64,000 nt of DNA, taken from positions 1-64,000 of the forward strand of contig JBDIWM010000005.1 in NCBI GenBank assembly GCA_039638595.1, written 5' to 3'. The notes under the pieces are model-generated. The model did not search any database, was not told the origin of the DNA, and saw only the letters and a program-made list of their open reading frames with translations. This DNA is from Atribacterota bacterium. GTDB taxonomy: Bacteria > Atribacterota > Atribacteria > Atribacterales > Caldatribacteriaceae. The translations under genes were made by a program, and so were the position numbers. How positions within the stretch are numbered: the first letter of the stretch is position 1; the number at the start of each line of letters is the position of its first letter. Below are positions 1,662-6,520 of the stretch, piece by piece.

Positions 1662-2597
1662 ATGGAAAAGCAAAAATCGAAGGGTATACCGGAACTTGAT
1701 GAAGTTCGATCCTGGATCGAAGAGTACGTAAAAAGGGTTGCCAATCTCAAGGATCAGAAAGGGAAAGAGGTTGAGCTCCTCTGCTTACGAGACAGAATTG
1801 AAGAATGGCTCTCGTTTTATCGTTCTCAGGGAGCGTTCGTCGACCCTGAAGAGACCCGAGTAGGAAACTTTGATGCGCTCTTTGAAAAACAATGTTTCCT
1901 CTTCATCAGGATGCTCGGTAAAAGAACTTTAGAAGAAGAAAGAAAAAAACACAATCCCCCAAAAGAGCGATGGTGGTGGTGGATCGATGAAACAGTAAAA
2001 CAAAAAAGAAGAGCACAAGCTCGCAAGAGACTGATGTTCTCGGGAGTTACTGTGGCAATCATACTTTCCCTTTATTTCCTGGTTTTCCGTCTTCCTCCTG
2101 CAGAACAGAACTACTTAAATGCCATGAGTCGAGCTGAACAGGGGATCGACAAAGCACAATGGGAGGAAGCCATTCAGGCCTGTCAAGAAGCCATTACTCT
2201 TTTTCCCGAACGTTCCACTCCATACGTTATTATGGGGTGTATCTACGAAAAACTCGGTAAGGAAGAAAACGCAAAAGCGATCTTTGCACAGGTTGAATCC
2301 TTGTACTCCAGAAAATCCGATTTCCTCCTTGAGAAAGCCATGTGGTACTTCCGGCTGGCACTTCTTGACCGATCGAAAGCCACCATTGCAGAAATATTAG
2401 AAGAAGATCCGGAAAATCTCTCGGCATTGAATCTTCTCGGTTCTCTCTATGAAGCAGAAAACAAAGTTGTGGAAGCGATAAAAGTCTACGAAAAACTTCT
2501 AGCGCTAGCGGAGGAAAAGGAAGAACTGAACCTCATTCCCATGGTTAAGATGAAAATCGGGATGTTGCAATTGAAATTACCACTAACTCTTCCTTAA
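1662..2597 (+). CDS. Membrane-anchored tetratricopeptide-repeat protein
   Basis: 311 residues. The first ~125 are charged and helical with no known domain, then a short basic patch (KQKRRAQARKR). A single hydrophobic segment follows at about 128-148 (VTVAIILSLYFLVF). The remainder is a run of TPR-like helix pairs, for example EQGIDKAQWEEAIQACQEA and AENKVVEAIKVYEKLL. The topology suggests a cytoplasmic N-terminus and outside TPRs, which in other proteins scaffold protein assembly. Function unknown. It starts behind its own promoter and ends 15 bases inside the convergent DUF1667 gene. It resembles fused TPR/membrane proteins only in a general way. Confidence 0.75.
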   Translation: MEKQKSKGIPELDEVRSWIEEYVKRVANLKDQKGKEVELLCLRDRIEEWLSFYRSQGAFVDPEETRVGNFDALFEKQCFLFIRMLGKRTLEEERKKHNPPKERWWWWIDETVKQKRRAQARKRLMFSGVTVAIILSLYFLVFRLPPAEQNYLNAMSRAEQGIDKAQWEEAIQACQEAITLFPERSTPYVIMGCIYEKLGKEENAKAIFAQVESLYSRKSDFLLEKAMWYFRLALLDRSKATIAEILEEDPENLSALNLLGSLYEAENKVVEAIKVYEKLLALAEEKEELNLIPMVKMKIGMLQLKLPLTLP

Positions 2598-2966
2598 GAT
2601 TTTTCCATTAGAGACTACGGTTCTCGTTGCTAAAAGATGAACCCCTTTTTCTCCTAAAAGATTTTCCACAATCACCGTACCCCTTTTTATCGGTGCCTGG
2701 ACCTCAAGGGACTTGAGAAAAATCATCAGTTCTCTGATTTTCCCTTTGGGGAAAGGTGCAGAAGTTCGAACCGGAAGTCTTGGGATTACTCCACCACGGA
2801 TGGGTATGGTGGTCGTTACCAGCCGGCAAGGAGCAGTGATTTCCCTGTAGGCATATTCTTTCCCCCGTTTACACCCACCTCTAATGGTCAACGAATCGCC
2901 TTCTCTTATTCCTTCCAAATGGCAACTTTGTGGGCAAACCACACAAATCAGTTTAACCGATTCCAT
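2583..2966 (-). CDS. DUF1667 protein, partner of glycerol-3-phosphate oxidoreductases
   Basis: 127 residues from the ATG at 2966, which has AGGGGG about 11 bases upstream. A longer frame to 3002 begins with a GTG that is itself inside GGAGGAGGGTG, so it is less likely. The N-terminus has CVVCPQSCHL followed by GGCKRGKEYA, giving cysteines C-x2-C-x3-C and a fourth, suited to an iron-sulfur or zinc site. DUF1667 proteins are regularly the third gene after a GlpA-like flavoprotein and a second flavoprotein, as here. By inference it is an electron-transfer or maturation subunit of that complex. Its stop overlaps the convergent TPR gene. Confidence 0.85.
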   Translation of the reverse strand: MESVKLICVVCPQSCHLEGIREGDSLTIRGGCKRGKEYAYREITAPCRLVTTTIPIRGGVIPRLPVRTSAPFPKGKIRELMIFLKSLEVQAPIKRGTVIVENLLGEKGVHLLATRTVVSNGKILRKS

Positions 2967-4215
2967 GGACTCTTTTCCCCCTGATACTGACCTGAATTTC
3001 ACCCTCCTCCGACGGCCAGGAAATATCCCACATGTTCATTTTAACCATTTCACTGGGGTAACAAAGCGGAACTGACACTGCTTGAAATTCCCTACCTTCA
3101 AAAGAAAACGAAAGAACTGCGTCACGAAAAGCATGCTGGGATCGTATGAACAGAAACCCCTCCCGTCCTTCTCGAATCCGCTGAGGAATCACATGAGAAA
3201 CCCCTGAAGCCGGCACGAGCATATGACGTACCGGTTTTCTCTCCCAAGGGTTAATACGAATCGCTCTCCCCACCATCGTGGAAACCATAGTCACATAATC
3301 CACCAGGTCAAACACTGCAACCACATTGCCACAGGCAAAAAACCCCGCTTTATCACAGGAAAAATATTCGTCGACGAACGGACCACCGGTAAAAGGACAA
3401 AGAGGAATACCAGCCTTCTTGCTTAAATCATTTTCTGGAATGAGACCTACGGAAAGAAGCACCGTATCACACTCAACGTATTGCTCACTTCCTGAAACGA
3501 TTTGACCCCGGTCATCGACTCTACTAATGAGTACACCTTCTACCCGATCTCTCCCTAAAATTTTGGTAACCGTGTGGGAGAGAAGAAGCGGAATATCAAA
3601 GTCTAAGAGACACTGGACATAATTCCGCAACAGTCCACTGAGTGAATGCTTGATTTCCACCACGGCTTTTACGCACGCTCCTTCGAGCGCCAATCTCCGA
3701 GCCATGATAAGCCCAATATCCCCAGAACCCAGAATGACAATTTCCTTCCCCGGAAGATATCCTTCCACATTAACCAGATATTGTGCCAATCCAGCTGTAA
3801 AAACACCCGCTGGTCGGTGACCCGGGATACGGAGCATTCCTCTGGTACGTTCCCGACATCCCATACCCAGCACCACATTCTCCGCATAGAACTCCCAAAC
3901 CCCTGCAGGATTCACGGCTCTGACGATTCTATCTTCAGTTATCTCCAGAACCGTGGTATCGAGAAAAATTTCGACCTGAGTCTTTTCCAACTGTTCAACG
4001 AAGTGTTCAGCATATTCTGGTCCAGTCAACTCTTCTCCAAAATAGTGAAGCCCGAAGCCGGTATGGATACATTGATTGAGGATTCCTCCTAAGTATTTTC
4101 CCCGCTCCAAAAGAAACACAGGCCGTGCACCATTCTCAAAAGAAGACAGTGCGGCTGCCATGCCTGCTGGGCCGCCACCGATTACCACCACTTGAGCTTC
4201 AACACGTCTGGGCAT
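2953..4215 (-). CDS. NAD(P)/FAD-dependent oxidoreductase of the glycerol-3-phosphate module
   Basis: 420 residues from the ATG at 4215 (MPRRVEAQ), chosen because the FAD-binding GGGPAGMAAAL follows directly. A longer frame would add seven residues. A second Rossmann motif (ILGSGDIGLIMARRLA, about 165-180) binds the pyridine nucleotide, as in the class II pyridine-nucleotide disulfide oxidoreductase fold. A C-G-N-V-V-A-V-F-D segment near 315 is the usual second FAD contact. It overlaps the upstream GlpA-like gene by 17 bases and the DUF1667 gene by 14, so the three are translationally coupled. Likely role: passing electrons from glycerol-3-phosphate oxidation to NAD(P) or another carrier. This is inference from context. 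Confidence 0.85.
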   Translation of the reverse strand: MPRRVEAQVVVIGGGPAGMAAALSSFENGARPVFLLERGKYLGGILNQCIHTGFGLHYFGEELTGPEYAEHFVEQLEKTQVEIFLDTTVLEITEDRIVRAVNPAGVWEFYAENVVLGMGCRERTRGMLRIPGHRPAGVFTAGLAQYLVNVEGYLPGKEIVILGSGDIGLIMARRLALEGACVKAVVEIKHSLSGLLRNYVQCLLDFDIPLLLSHTVTKILGRDRVEGVLISRVDDRGQIVSGSEQYVECDTVLLSVGLIPENDLSKKAGIPLCPFTGGPFVDEYFSCDKAGFFACGNVVAVFDLVDYVTMVSTMVGRAIRINPWERKPVRHMLVPASGVSHVIPQRIREGREGFLFIRSQHAFRDAVLSFSFEGREFQAVSVPLCYPSEMVKMNMWDISWPSEEGEIQVSIRGKRVHGIG

Positions 4216-5653
4216 TGTCTTGTACCACGTCCTCAATCTTTCCTAAAAAATAGAAAGAACCCCTTCCTGATTTCAAAATTTCTTTTACCCCGCGATGAAG
4301 TTCCTGCATCATAATGATGGGAAGATACATTCCGCAAAATCCCCCCTGACACCGCCCGGCCATCACCCGTACCCTTCTTTTGAGGCCATCGAGGGTGGAA
4401 GCAGGAATAGGACCGAAAAAGGCGTGCTTTACTTCAGCTAGAGTGACTTCTTCACAACGACAGATAATTTTTCCCCAGTCAGGATTTTCCACAATCAGGC
4501 GTTCTCTTTCTTCGAAACTGCAATTTCTGAAAACTGGAAAAGCCGTTCGGGGAGAAACCCTTTTCTCCCACAACGTGATTCCAGAATCCTTCAATTTCTC
4601 CCCCACGTATTCGGCAATTCCTAAAGAAGCCGTAATACCAGGAGATTCAATACCACAAAGGTGTAAAAGACCTGGAAAAGAGGAAGAGAAGAAAATACGG
4701 AAATCTCTTTCTGGAAGTGTAGGTCGCAAACCTGAAAATGTGGTAATCGTTTGCTCAAGTGGCAAAGAGGGAACCAATCTGCGAGCACCCTCTTCAACCT
4801 CTTTAAGCCCCTGAAATGTGGTCGCAGTATCCTCTTCATCCACAGGCTCAAAATTGGGACCAACCAAGATATTTCCCTCAGGAGTCGGAGAAACCAGTAT
4901 CCCTTTACTCTCAACCGTAGGAACAGGATAGAGAACATGCCGGACCAACGAATCGCACTCTCTATCGAGCACGAAATACTGCCCCCGGAAGAGTCGATGA
5001 GAGGGTACAGCATCGTGACTTTTCTGGGCAAGTTTCGTTGCGGATAAACCAGTGCAATTGACTACTCTTCTCCCCAAATAACAATCGTTTCTTCCCAGAA
5101 CTTTAATGAATTTGTCCCCACCCTCAAACTCCATAACCTCTTCGTCAAAGACAAAGGACACCCCGTTGAGTGCAGCAAACTCAGCCAGAGCTAGAGTCAT
5201 AGCGAACGGAGAAACAACCCTTGTTTCCGGGTCGTAGTAACAGGCAAAGACGCGAGGACTCAATGATGGTTCGATCTCATTTGATTCCATAGGTCCTATG
5301 ATTTCGGCACCCGGAATAGCACCTCTTTCCTTGAGAATCCTCAGAAAAGCCGCCTCTTCTCTGGTGAACGCCACAGTCAAGGCACCAGTCTTGAGGAAAT
5401 GAAGACTGAGCTCTGCTTCTACCTGAGGAAAAAGCGCCAGAGACCGAAGATGGAGTTCTCCCTTCAAGGTGTAAGGGGTCCAGTAACTTTGAGAGTGGAT
5501 GATTCCAGTGTTTGCCTTACTCACTCCGCAACAAACATCACTTTCTCTTTCTAAAAGTAAAACTTCCAAATCGAAATGCGACAAATACCAGGCCACGGCA
5601 CATCCCACAATACCTCCACCAATGATGATCACATCAAACACCTTTTCCATCAA
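4199..5653 (-). CDS. GlpA-like FAD-dependent dehydrogenase with C-terminal [2Fe-2S]-type domain
   Basis: 484 residues. The N-terminus has the FAD dinucleotide fold GGGIVGCAVAWYLS and the DAO-family architecture found in glycerol-3-phosphate dehydrogenases and 2-hydroxyglutarate oxidases. The C-terminal ~90 residues form a BFD-like module with IICRCEEVT and GRCQGGFC, four cysteines that can hold a [2Fe-2S] cluster. In the family this oxidises glycerol-3-phosphate to dihydroxyacetone phosphate. The position directly after glpP (10 bases) strongly supports that substrate. L-2-hydroxyglutarate oxidase is the main alternative. Confidence 0.85.
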   Translation of the reverse strand: MMEKVFDVIIIGGGIVGCAVAWYLSHFDLEVLLLERESDVCCGVSKANTGIIHSQSYWTPYTLKGELHLRSLALFPQVEAELSLHFLKTGALTVAFTREEAAFLRILKERGAIPGAEIIGPMESNEIEPSLSPRVFACYYDPETRVVSPFAMTLALAEFAALNGVSFVFDEEVMEFEGGDKFIKVLGRNDCYLGRRVVNCTGLSATKLAQKSHDAVPSHRLFRGQYFVLDRECDSLVRHVLYPVPTVESKGILVSPTPEGNILVGPNFEPVDEEDTATTFQGLKEVEEGARRLVPSLPLEQTITTFSGLRPTLPERDFRIFFSSSFPGLLHLCGIESPGITASLGIAEYVGEKLKDSGITLWEKRVSPRTAFPVFRNCSFEERERLIVENPDWGKIICRCEEVTLAEVKHAFFGPIPASTLDGLKRRVRVMAGRCQGGFCGMYLPIIMMQELHRGVKEILKSGRGSFYFLGKIEDVVQDNAQTC

Positions 5654-5663
5654 AGGGAACTCC

Positions 5664-6251
5664 TCACCACTGTATATGGTTCATTCGCCAAAGATTTTTC
5701 GCACTCGTTGAAATTCCCACTGCGCCATTCTGTAAAATTTCCCTGGCTTCGTTCATTTCTCGTATAAACCCTCCACAAATAATGGGAGGAAAAGTATCCT
5801 TAGGAACGAAAGACTTAATTTTGGGAAATATCACCCCAGGCAACAATTCCACCGCATCAGGAGCCACATCCTTGACAATCTTGAAACCAGTTTTCAGTGA
5901 CTCGCTGTCGATACAAAACAATCGGAAAATGGAAATAAATCCAGCTTTTTTTGCTAGCGTCAAGGTCCGAGTTCGTGTGGAAATAATGCCTTTTACCAGA
6001 GGAAACGTTTCCCGAATAAAAATTAAGCCACTCTCGTCCGAAGCAATACCCCCAAAAAGGTCAATATGCAAAAGGAAATAAGGTACTTCGGCAAACTGTA
6101 ACAGGACATCTCTTATTTCCAGAACGTTACTTTCCAGAAGAAAAAAAACCTGACAGAGAGCACGATCAGCCTCACCCACGGTAGGAAGTGAAGAGGTCCG
6201 AAGAGCTCCAATGATGGGATATTGACGCAAGGTCTTCAAAAATCCTTCCAT
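5664..6251 (-). CDS. glpP: Glycerol-3-phosphate-responsive antiterminator GlpP
   Basis: 195 residues from the ATG at 6251, which has GGAGGG at 6257-6262. The open frame continues upstream to 6527, but that stretch contains the operon's own promoter and terminator and a separate small gene, so it is not coding for GlpP. The protein matches the GlpP beta/alpha-barrel family from YPIIGALRTSS to the C-terminal ICGGFI segment and NGAVGIST. In Bacillus, GlpP bound to glycerol-3-phosphate lets polymerase read through a leader terminator of glycerol genes. Here it heads the glycerol-3-phosphate oxidation genes, so autoregulation is likely. Confidence 0.88.
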   Translation of the reverse strand: MEGFLKTLRQYPIIGALRTSSLPTVGEADRALCQVFFLLESNVLEIRDVLLQFAEVPYFLLHIDLFGGIASDESGLIFIRETFPLVKGIISTRTRTLTLAKKAGFISIFRLFCIDSESLKTGFKIVKDVAPDAVELLPGVIFPKIKSFVPKDTFPPIICGGFIREMNEAREILQNGAVGISTSAKNLWRMNHIQW

Positions 6252-6262
6252 ACATTCCCTCC

Positions 6263-6301
6263 AAAAATAAAAGCCTTCCAGAATATATTCTGGAAGGCTT
6301 T
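6263..6301 (-). terminator. Leader terminator / GlpP antitermination target
   Basis: A perfect 32-base palindrome (6270-6301; arms AAAGCCTTCCAGAATA and its complement) followed on the minus strand by TTTTATTTTT (6263-6272, beginning in the last bases of the palindrome). It then runs directly into the glpP ribosome binding site at 6257-6262. It lies about 17 bases after the predicted transcription start. By analogy with glycerol leaders in Bacillus it would stop transcription unless GlpP acts. Confidence 0.75.
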
Positions 6302-6324
6302 CTCCTCTTCTCCAAGCCATACTC

Positions 6325-6353
6325 AGTATACCATATTCTGAATTCCTTGTCAT
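6325..6353 (-). promoter_or_regulatory. Promoter of the glpP operon
   Basis: Minus-strand ATGACA (6348-6353), a 17-base spacer and TATACT (6325-6330), each five of six consensus, with TGG just before the -10 box. The transcript should begin near 6318, just upstream of the terminator hairpin. The -35 box overlaps the stop codon of the upstream small gene. Confidence 0.75.
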
Positions 6354-6520
6354 CTCCCTCTTCGCTGAAACGTATTGCTCAAAAAAATACCGAGTATCGC
6401 CAAAAGGAGAATCCAGATAAAGTTGCTCACCCAAAAGGATTGAGGATTGCTTCTTAAAAGAAAGAGATAAATAAAAGGTGCGAAAACAACCAACACCGCC
6501 ATGGCGGTGATCATACGCAT
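6350..6520 (-). CDS. Small two-helix membrane protein (56 residues)
   Basis: ATG at 6520, TGA at 6350-6352. Two hydrophobic stretches (about residues 4-22, with VLVVFAPFIYLFLL, and 33-48, with FIWILLLAILGIFL) are separated by a short polar turn (RSNPQSFWVSN). It ends in the basic tail QRRGR, a classic positive-inside hairpin. AGGTGA lies four bases before the ATG and overlaps the stop region of the preceding PHP gene, so the two are probably cotranscribed. I do not recognise the family. The codons run in a different frame from the long overlapping frame that extends glpP. Confidence 0.6.
   Translation of the reverse strand: MRMITAMAVLVVFAPFIYLFLLRSNPQSFWVSNFIWILLLAILGIFLSNTFQRRGR
6494..6509. 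repeat. 16-bp perfect palindrome at the start of the small membrane gene
   Basis: CACCGCCATGGCGGTG, a perfect inverted repeat covering codons 4-9 of the 56-residue protein. It could fold the mRNA near the start codon or simply reflect Ala/Val codons. No regulator can be assigned. Confidence 0.4.

Follow-up and report, generated by a model that had tools for sequence, protein, structure and literature searches.

The 64,000-nucleotide stretch of an Atribacterota genome analysed here (the window) very probably carries a GlpP-dependent transcription-antitermination leader of ~67 nt. It heads a minus-strand operon of glpP, a glycerol-3-phosphate (G3P) oxidase/dehydrogenase gene, an FAD oxidoreductase gene and a DUF1667 gene. 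A first-pass annotation had read the site, from the single sequence, as a GlpP-type leader autoregulating a G3P oxidation operon, and comparison supports that reading: the leader is conserved, recurs in trans before G3P genes, shows compensatory changes and has a box in common with Bacillota glpF and glpD leaders. For GlpP binding to the box, its dependence on G3P, read-through and the exact start site we infer the following scheme. Without G3P, the nascent RNA would form a perfect hairpin and RNA polymerase would stop at the U-tract. With G3P bound, GlpP would grip the GGAGA-N3-GGAGA boxes, which precede and form the hairpin foot, as they leave RNA polymerase, so that the foot could no longer pair with the U-tract, giving read-through into glpP and the oxidation genes. 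As G3P-bound GlpP on the box would prevent terminator closure, glpP would induce its own operon, placing the latter under positive autoregulation.

The assignment of the gene behind the hairpin as glpP was borne out by profile and structure matches. Its product aligns with positions 14–173 of the 173 in PF04309 (E 4.8e-42; 143.8 bits against a cut-off of 27), placing it in that family, and it matches the solved homologues PDB 3KTS (E 4e-24) and 1VKF (E 5e-20). A homologue of 82% identity was found in a Candidatus Atribacteria contig. For the product of the following gene the best NCBIfam matches are NF033460 and TIGR03377, both under cut-off.

Features of the glpP leader and operon, with positions in the window
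Feature	Positions	Strand	Remark
-35 ATGACA	6353-6348	minus	read directly
Extended -10 TG	6333-6332	minus	spacer -35 to -10 of 17 nt
-10 TATACT	6330-6325	minus	sigma-70 type promoter, 6353-6325
Leader stretch GGCTTGGAGAAGAGGAGAAAGCCTTCCAGAATATATTCTGGAAGGCTTTTATTTTT	6318-6263	minus	begins six bases past the -10
GGC	6316..6318	minus	predicted transcript 5' end at G6318
Box 1 GGAGA	6309..6313	minus	candidate GlpP-binding half-site; unpaired in folded leaders
Box 2 GGAGA	6301..6305	minus	8 nt after box 1; forms terminator base with U-tract
Intrinsic terminator hairpin	6269..6302	minus	contains perfect palindrome 6301-6270
U-tract TATTTTT	6263..6269	minus	read directly
Shine-Dalgarno GGAGGG of glpP	6257..6262	minus	read directly
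glpP, G3P-responsive antiterminator, 195 aa	5664..6251	minus	PF04309; 3KTS/1VKF
GlpA-like/type-2 G3P oxidase-like FAD oxidoreductase with BFD-like [2Fe-2S] domain	4199..5653	minus	PF01266, PF04324
FAD-dependent pyridine-nucleotide-type oxidoreductase	2953..4236	minus	PF07992; overlaps the 4199..5653 gene
DUF1667 protein	2583..3002	minus	PF07892 (E 1e-25); last gene of the run

The physical layout first described, a near-consensus promoter, a perfect 32-bp palindrome with a U-tract and then directly the ribosome binding site and ATG of glpP, was recovered in every part. The strong promoter matches 10 of 12 consensus positions in addition to its extended -10. The palindrome is made up of AAAGCCTTCCAGAATA and TATTCTGGAAGGCTTT, 16-nt arms that are 100% complementary with a spacer of 0, and the T-tract, GGAGGG and the ATG (6251) lie directly 3' of it. 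It is the sole inverted repeat reported between 5000 and 7600 (arms of >=12 nt, within 60 nt), and the best terminator-like site between positions 1 and 14000 of the window, with 15 pairs compared to 7 for the runner-up. A perfect 32-nt palindrome has a chance probability of ~4^-16 per position, and the fold of the leader RNA has a z-score of -4.4, equalled by none of 200 shuffles. In this arrangement the glycerol/G3P gene is preceded by an intrinsic terminator, itself preceded by the promoter, as expected of a GlpP-controlled leader. At gathering score no Rfam family was found in the window, which gave sub-threshold hairpin matches only. Between the PHP gene and the promoter lies a reading frame of 56 codons (6350-6519, minus) that encodes a hydrophobic protein; the stop of the frame (~6351) overlaps the -35 hexamer, and a similar sequence is found upstream of the leader in the relatives L003 and L013-L015.

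We built a covariance model (R1) from 11 glpP leaders and ran it over 50 genomes of the phylum; the leader studied here is matched from 6318 to 6263 with 74.4 bits. The model returned 18 strong matches (E <1e-8; range 4.5e-14 to 3e-9), 13 before glpP and 5 in trans. These are separated by a gap from the next unrelated matches, ordinary terminators at 2e-4, with only the opposite strands of known sites in between. The 13 glpP copies belong to 12 genomes, one of which (G006) has two. Orthologous glpP genes of the same family and order carry the leader, and it is kept across families; f7 and the lineage f3 g8, which is of that order, lack it at glpP. Five of the weak matches (E >1e-4; f5, f7 and others) were inspected and rejected as leaders, as none precedes a recognisable glp gene and all resemble ordinary terminators. 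At one locus (L024/L030, G007:C1:7723-8179), glpP is divided between two frames that overlap, through either a frameshift or an assembly error.

Three of the trans leaders (G015, G017, G020) precede an operon of the G3P-oxidase/FAD/DUF1667 type, whose gene order, judged from translated ORF starts, resembles that of the glpP operon; glpP of these genomes is located elsewhere and has no leader. A fourth (G019) precedes a glycerol-kinase operon (best family TIGR01311, 462 bits, below the strict cut-off), and no glpP was detected in that genome (87% complete) although the leader is present. The fifth (G004) precedes an ABC-transporter operon. Such trans leaders match what a trans-acting GlpP would require, and the plain terminator of a neighbouring gene would not give them.

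The promoter, GGC, GGAGA and the lower stem are kept among the glpP leaders. The sequence of the palindrome itself is not the conserved signal: upper stem and loop vary freely, and it is the 17-nt purine-box stretch before them that is conserved instead. The leader had also been described as having almost no RNA before the hairpin, and this is right as to its length; the 17 nt preceding the palindrome are, however, the most conserved part of the element, and on comparative grounds the probable GlpP site. All 17 Atribacterota leaders carry GG(C/T)nnGGAGA (GGC in 16, GGT in one), with box 1 GGAGA invariant. Box 2 GGAGA, 8 nt on, occurs in most leaders and is degenerate (AAGAA/CAGAA) in three. 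The -10 lies exactly 6 nt before GGC in 11 of 12 glpP leaders and 7 nt in the remaining one; given this fixed spacing, the transcript probably starts at GGC, with G6318 as the predicted first nucleotide. GlpP binding at the very 5' end of the RNA would suit both antitermination and mRNA stabilisation. An ATG at 6320, at the predicted transcript start, leaves the leader open in frame with glpP (6320-6251, minus); a leaderless, longer GlpP or a leader peptide from this codon is conceivable, but the frame is not conserved in relatives.

Across the 17 aligned leaders, 100% of the stem cells are paired and compensatory changes on both sides occur in 8 of 13 pairs, a level reached by none of 500 shuffles and measured on an alignment that, being fitted to the covariance model, leans towards structure. 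Slid partners are paired in at most 70% of cells. This pattern indicates, from comparison of the leaders, that the terminator is maintained by selection as an RNA structure. Computed folds leave box 1 unpaired nearly always, while box 2 and the U-tract make up the terminator foot.

LicT, SacY and GlcT (BglG family, RAT hairpin) provide inducible antitermination of catabolic operons, often with autoregulation, by stabilising a conserved antiterminator hairpin that overlaps the terminator. GlpP could act likewise, stabilising a mutually exclusive hairpin rather than directly blocking the foot: GGCUU (6318-6314) can pair with AAGCC (6300-6296) around a 13-nt purine loop, which is the minimum-energy fold of nascent RNA of 23–39 nt (~-5.6 kcal/mol), and GGC or GGT stands opposite GCC in 16 of 17 leaders. 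The energy of this pairing is nonetheless no better than that of shuffled sequence (z -0.08), and 11 leaders counted contain zero compensatory changes, with the fourth and fifth pairs broken in ~40% of them. Furthermore, the stem of the G004 ABC-transporter leader has turned into GGCUUCC, so that the pairing can no longer form there although GGC and the boxes are retained. We therefore rejected a hairpin of the BglG/LicT type, which lacks covariation and is lost in G004, and regard it as unlikely; the similarity to LicT, SacY and GlcT lies in the inducible antitermination of a catabolic operon.

With the 56-codon frame stopping at ~6351, shortly before the hairpin, the latter might be an ordinary terminator of that frame or of the PHP gene, next to an unrelated promoter and free of GlpP control. 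That is very improbable and was rejected: the hairpin goes with glp operons while the upstream genes differ at G015/G017/G020, G019 and G004, a promoter sits at fixed spacing between upstream gene and hairpin, and the upper stem drifts whereas the purine box ahead of it does not vary. We give scarcely any credence to attenuation by a leader peptide (MAWRRGES..., from ATG 6320-6318 in frame with glpP) whose translation would set the terminator. A start codon (ATG, GTG or TTG) does overlap GGC in most glpP leaders, giving M/V-A-W/R-R-K-G-E, but 3 of 12 have ACG, AAG or GAG instead, the frame relative to glpP is 0, 1 or 2 with indels inside the box, and the predicted transcript start leaves no ribosome-binding site; the model was rejected as neither frame nor start codon is conserved. 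Least probable of all is that the palindrome serves, as DNA, to bind a repressor or activator of the operon. In the single sequence, a perfect palindrome close behind a promoter does look like an operator, but this reading was rejected given loops of widely varying length, many of them non-palindromic, compensatory substitution in the upper stem, and a U-tract and box on one strand only.

Blocking of the foot by GlpP at the purine boxes also draws on glp leaders of other lineages, where a tandem NGAGA-N3-NGAGA box adjoins glp-gene terminators, both in Bacillota and in other genomes outside the phylum, with NGAGA or NGAGG at the box 1 position. Together with the trans leaders within the phylum, this gives a cis element common to other GlpP-regulon leaders. 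The Bacillota loci were taken from plasmid-collection records, some of them, judging by their size, evidently chromosomal. Examples are the glpP-glpK (GGAGACAAGGAGA) and glpD (GGAGATCGGGAGA) leaders of Paenibacillus (L038), the glpF (AGAGATTAAGAGA) and glpD (AGAGACCACGAGA) leaders of Cytobacillus, the glpD leader of Listeria (L083; TGAGATTCGGAGA) and the glpF leader of Acetoanaerobium (GGAGATGGGAGA). Outside the phylum, the box also occurs before glpF in G306 (AGAGATGAAGAGA) and before a G3P oxidase gene divergent from glpP in G369 (AGAGGATAAGAGA). G372 has two GlpP paralogues; close to one of them a tandem-box leader precedes glpD, and a glycerophosphodiesterase (GDPD) gene adjoining the other is likewise preceded by such a leader (loci L101 6057 and L102 4357).

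Among loci read outside Atribacterota, which were chosen around glp genes and scored with a box defined after the first examples had been seen, the box is found at 11 of 97 strong terminators. Nine of these stand ahead of glycerol/G3P genes, one is ahead of an MFS transporter gene beside glpP, and one lies just after glpP. A comparison with the reversed box does not serve as a control, since GAGAGA runs match it in both directions. The complete genome G306 contains 18 tandem boxes; a strong hairpin comes after two of them, of which the glpF box abuts a proper terminator. The other (950433) was taken as a chance occurrence and set aside because it precedes an aminotransferase-like gene, has a poor T-tract and leaves 15 nt between the second box and the hairpin. 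In Enterococcus raffinosus (L040), tandem-box terminators stand on either side of glpP, at 5614 on the minus strand and 6561 on the plus strand. An MFS transporter gene follows one of them; the other is just 3' of glpP, upstream of an IS110 element.

NGAGA-N3-NGAGA at the terminator foot may be a general GlpP element across several phyla, a proposition we hold to be evenly poised. GlpP would then prevent closure by holding a pair of purine boxes, in single-stranded RNA or in the lower stem, without a separate antiterminator hairpin, with positive feedback on glpP in both Atribacterota and Paenibacillus. We found no description of the box as a GlpP element in the open literature, a search that the key 1990s papers lie outside.

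TRAP, an RNA-binding antiterminator/attenuator protein, reads NAG repeats. HutP likewise reads NAG repeats (PMC7430163, where LicT is also treated). Both resemble the proposed GlpP mode in that a metabolite-bound protein reads short purine repeats beside a terminator, but they have other folds and use more repeats, so that the analogy is mechanistic only. In B. subtilis, the GlpP targets glpD, glpFK and glpTQ have a promoter, a GlpP binding site and a terminator in the 5' UTR, and G3P-bound GlpP disrupts the terminator to allow read-through (PMC9604022); for these leaders PMC9604022 and PMC3997798 cite Glatz 1996/1998 and Holmberg 1991/1992. B. subtilis GlpP also stabilises glpD mRNA (PMC7430163). 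The Atribacterota leader has the same parts, with a candidate GlpP site, but differs in that its predicted RNA begins directly at the box and that glpP itself is the first gene behind it, whereas the published B. subtilis targets are transport and catabolic genes. The Paenibacillus (L038 glpP-glpK and glpD) and Listeria (L083 glpD) leaders resemble it in having the box at the terminator foot, in Paenibacillus also before glpP, while their stem sequences are unrelated. Bacilli glp leaders (L039, L038, L083, L085) share AAGTTAAT shortly before the tandem box, which is missing in Atribacterota and may mark the region where the transcript starts or provide one more contact.

GlpP is a long-established textbook antiterminator, yet according to a 2013 statement for Thermotogales (PMC3750489) comparative genomics had not been applied to its regulon. 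What the present analysis adds is a leader in Atribacterota that appears to be autoregulated, and a candidate element for GlpP recognition that several lineages have in common. In this uncultured phylum, the compact, covarying element suggests a circuit under its own control. The element makes GlpP targets predictable from sequence, and the GlpP RNA code can be tested with templates of ~60 nt.

Within the genome that contains the window, the covariance model finds the leader once. The search of relatives for the leader, proposed at the outset, located it before glpP and the G019 glycerol-kinase operon as given above; this genome's own glpK sits elsewhere, and no leader was found before it. The sole predicted target here is therefore glpP's own operon. 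The same genome (G000, 2.1 Mb) contains nineteen FGGY-kinase-like matches spread over many contigs, a large sugar-kinase repertoire, and one of these matches has two in-frame TAG codons (C2:42630-43796).
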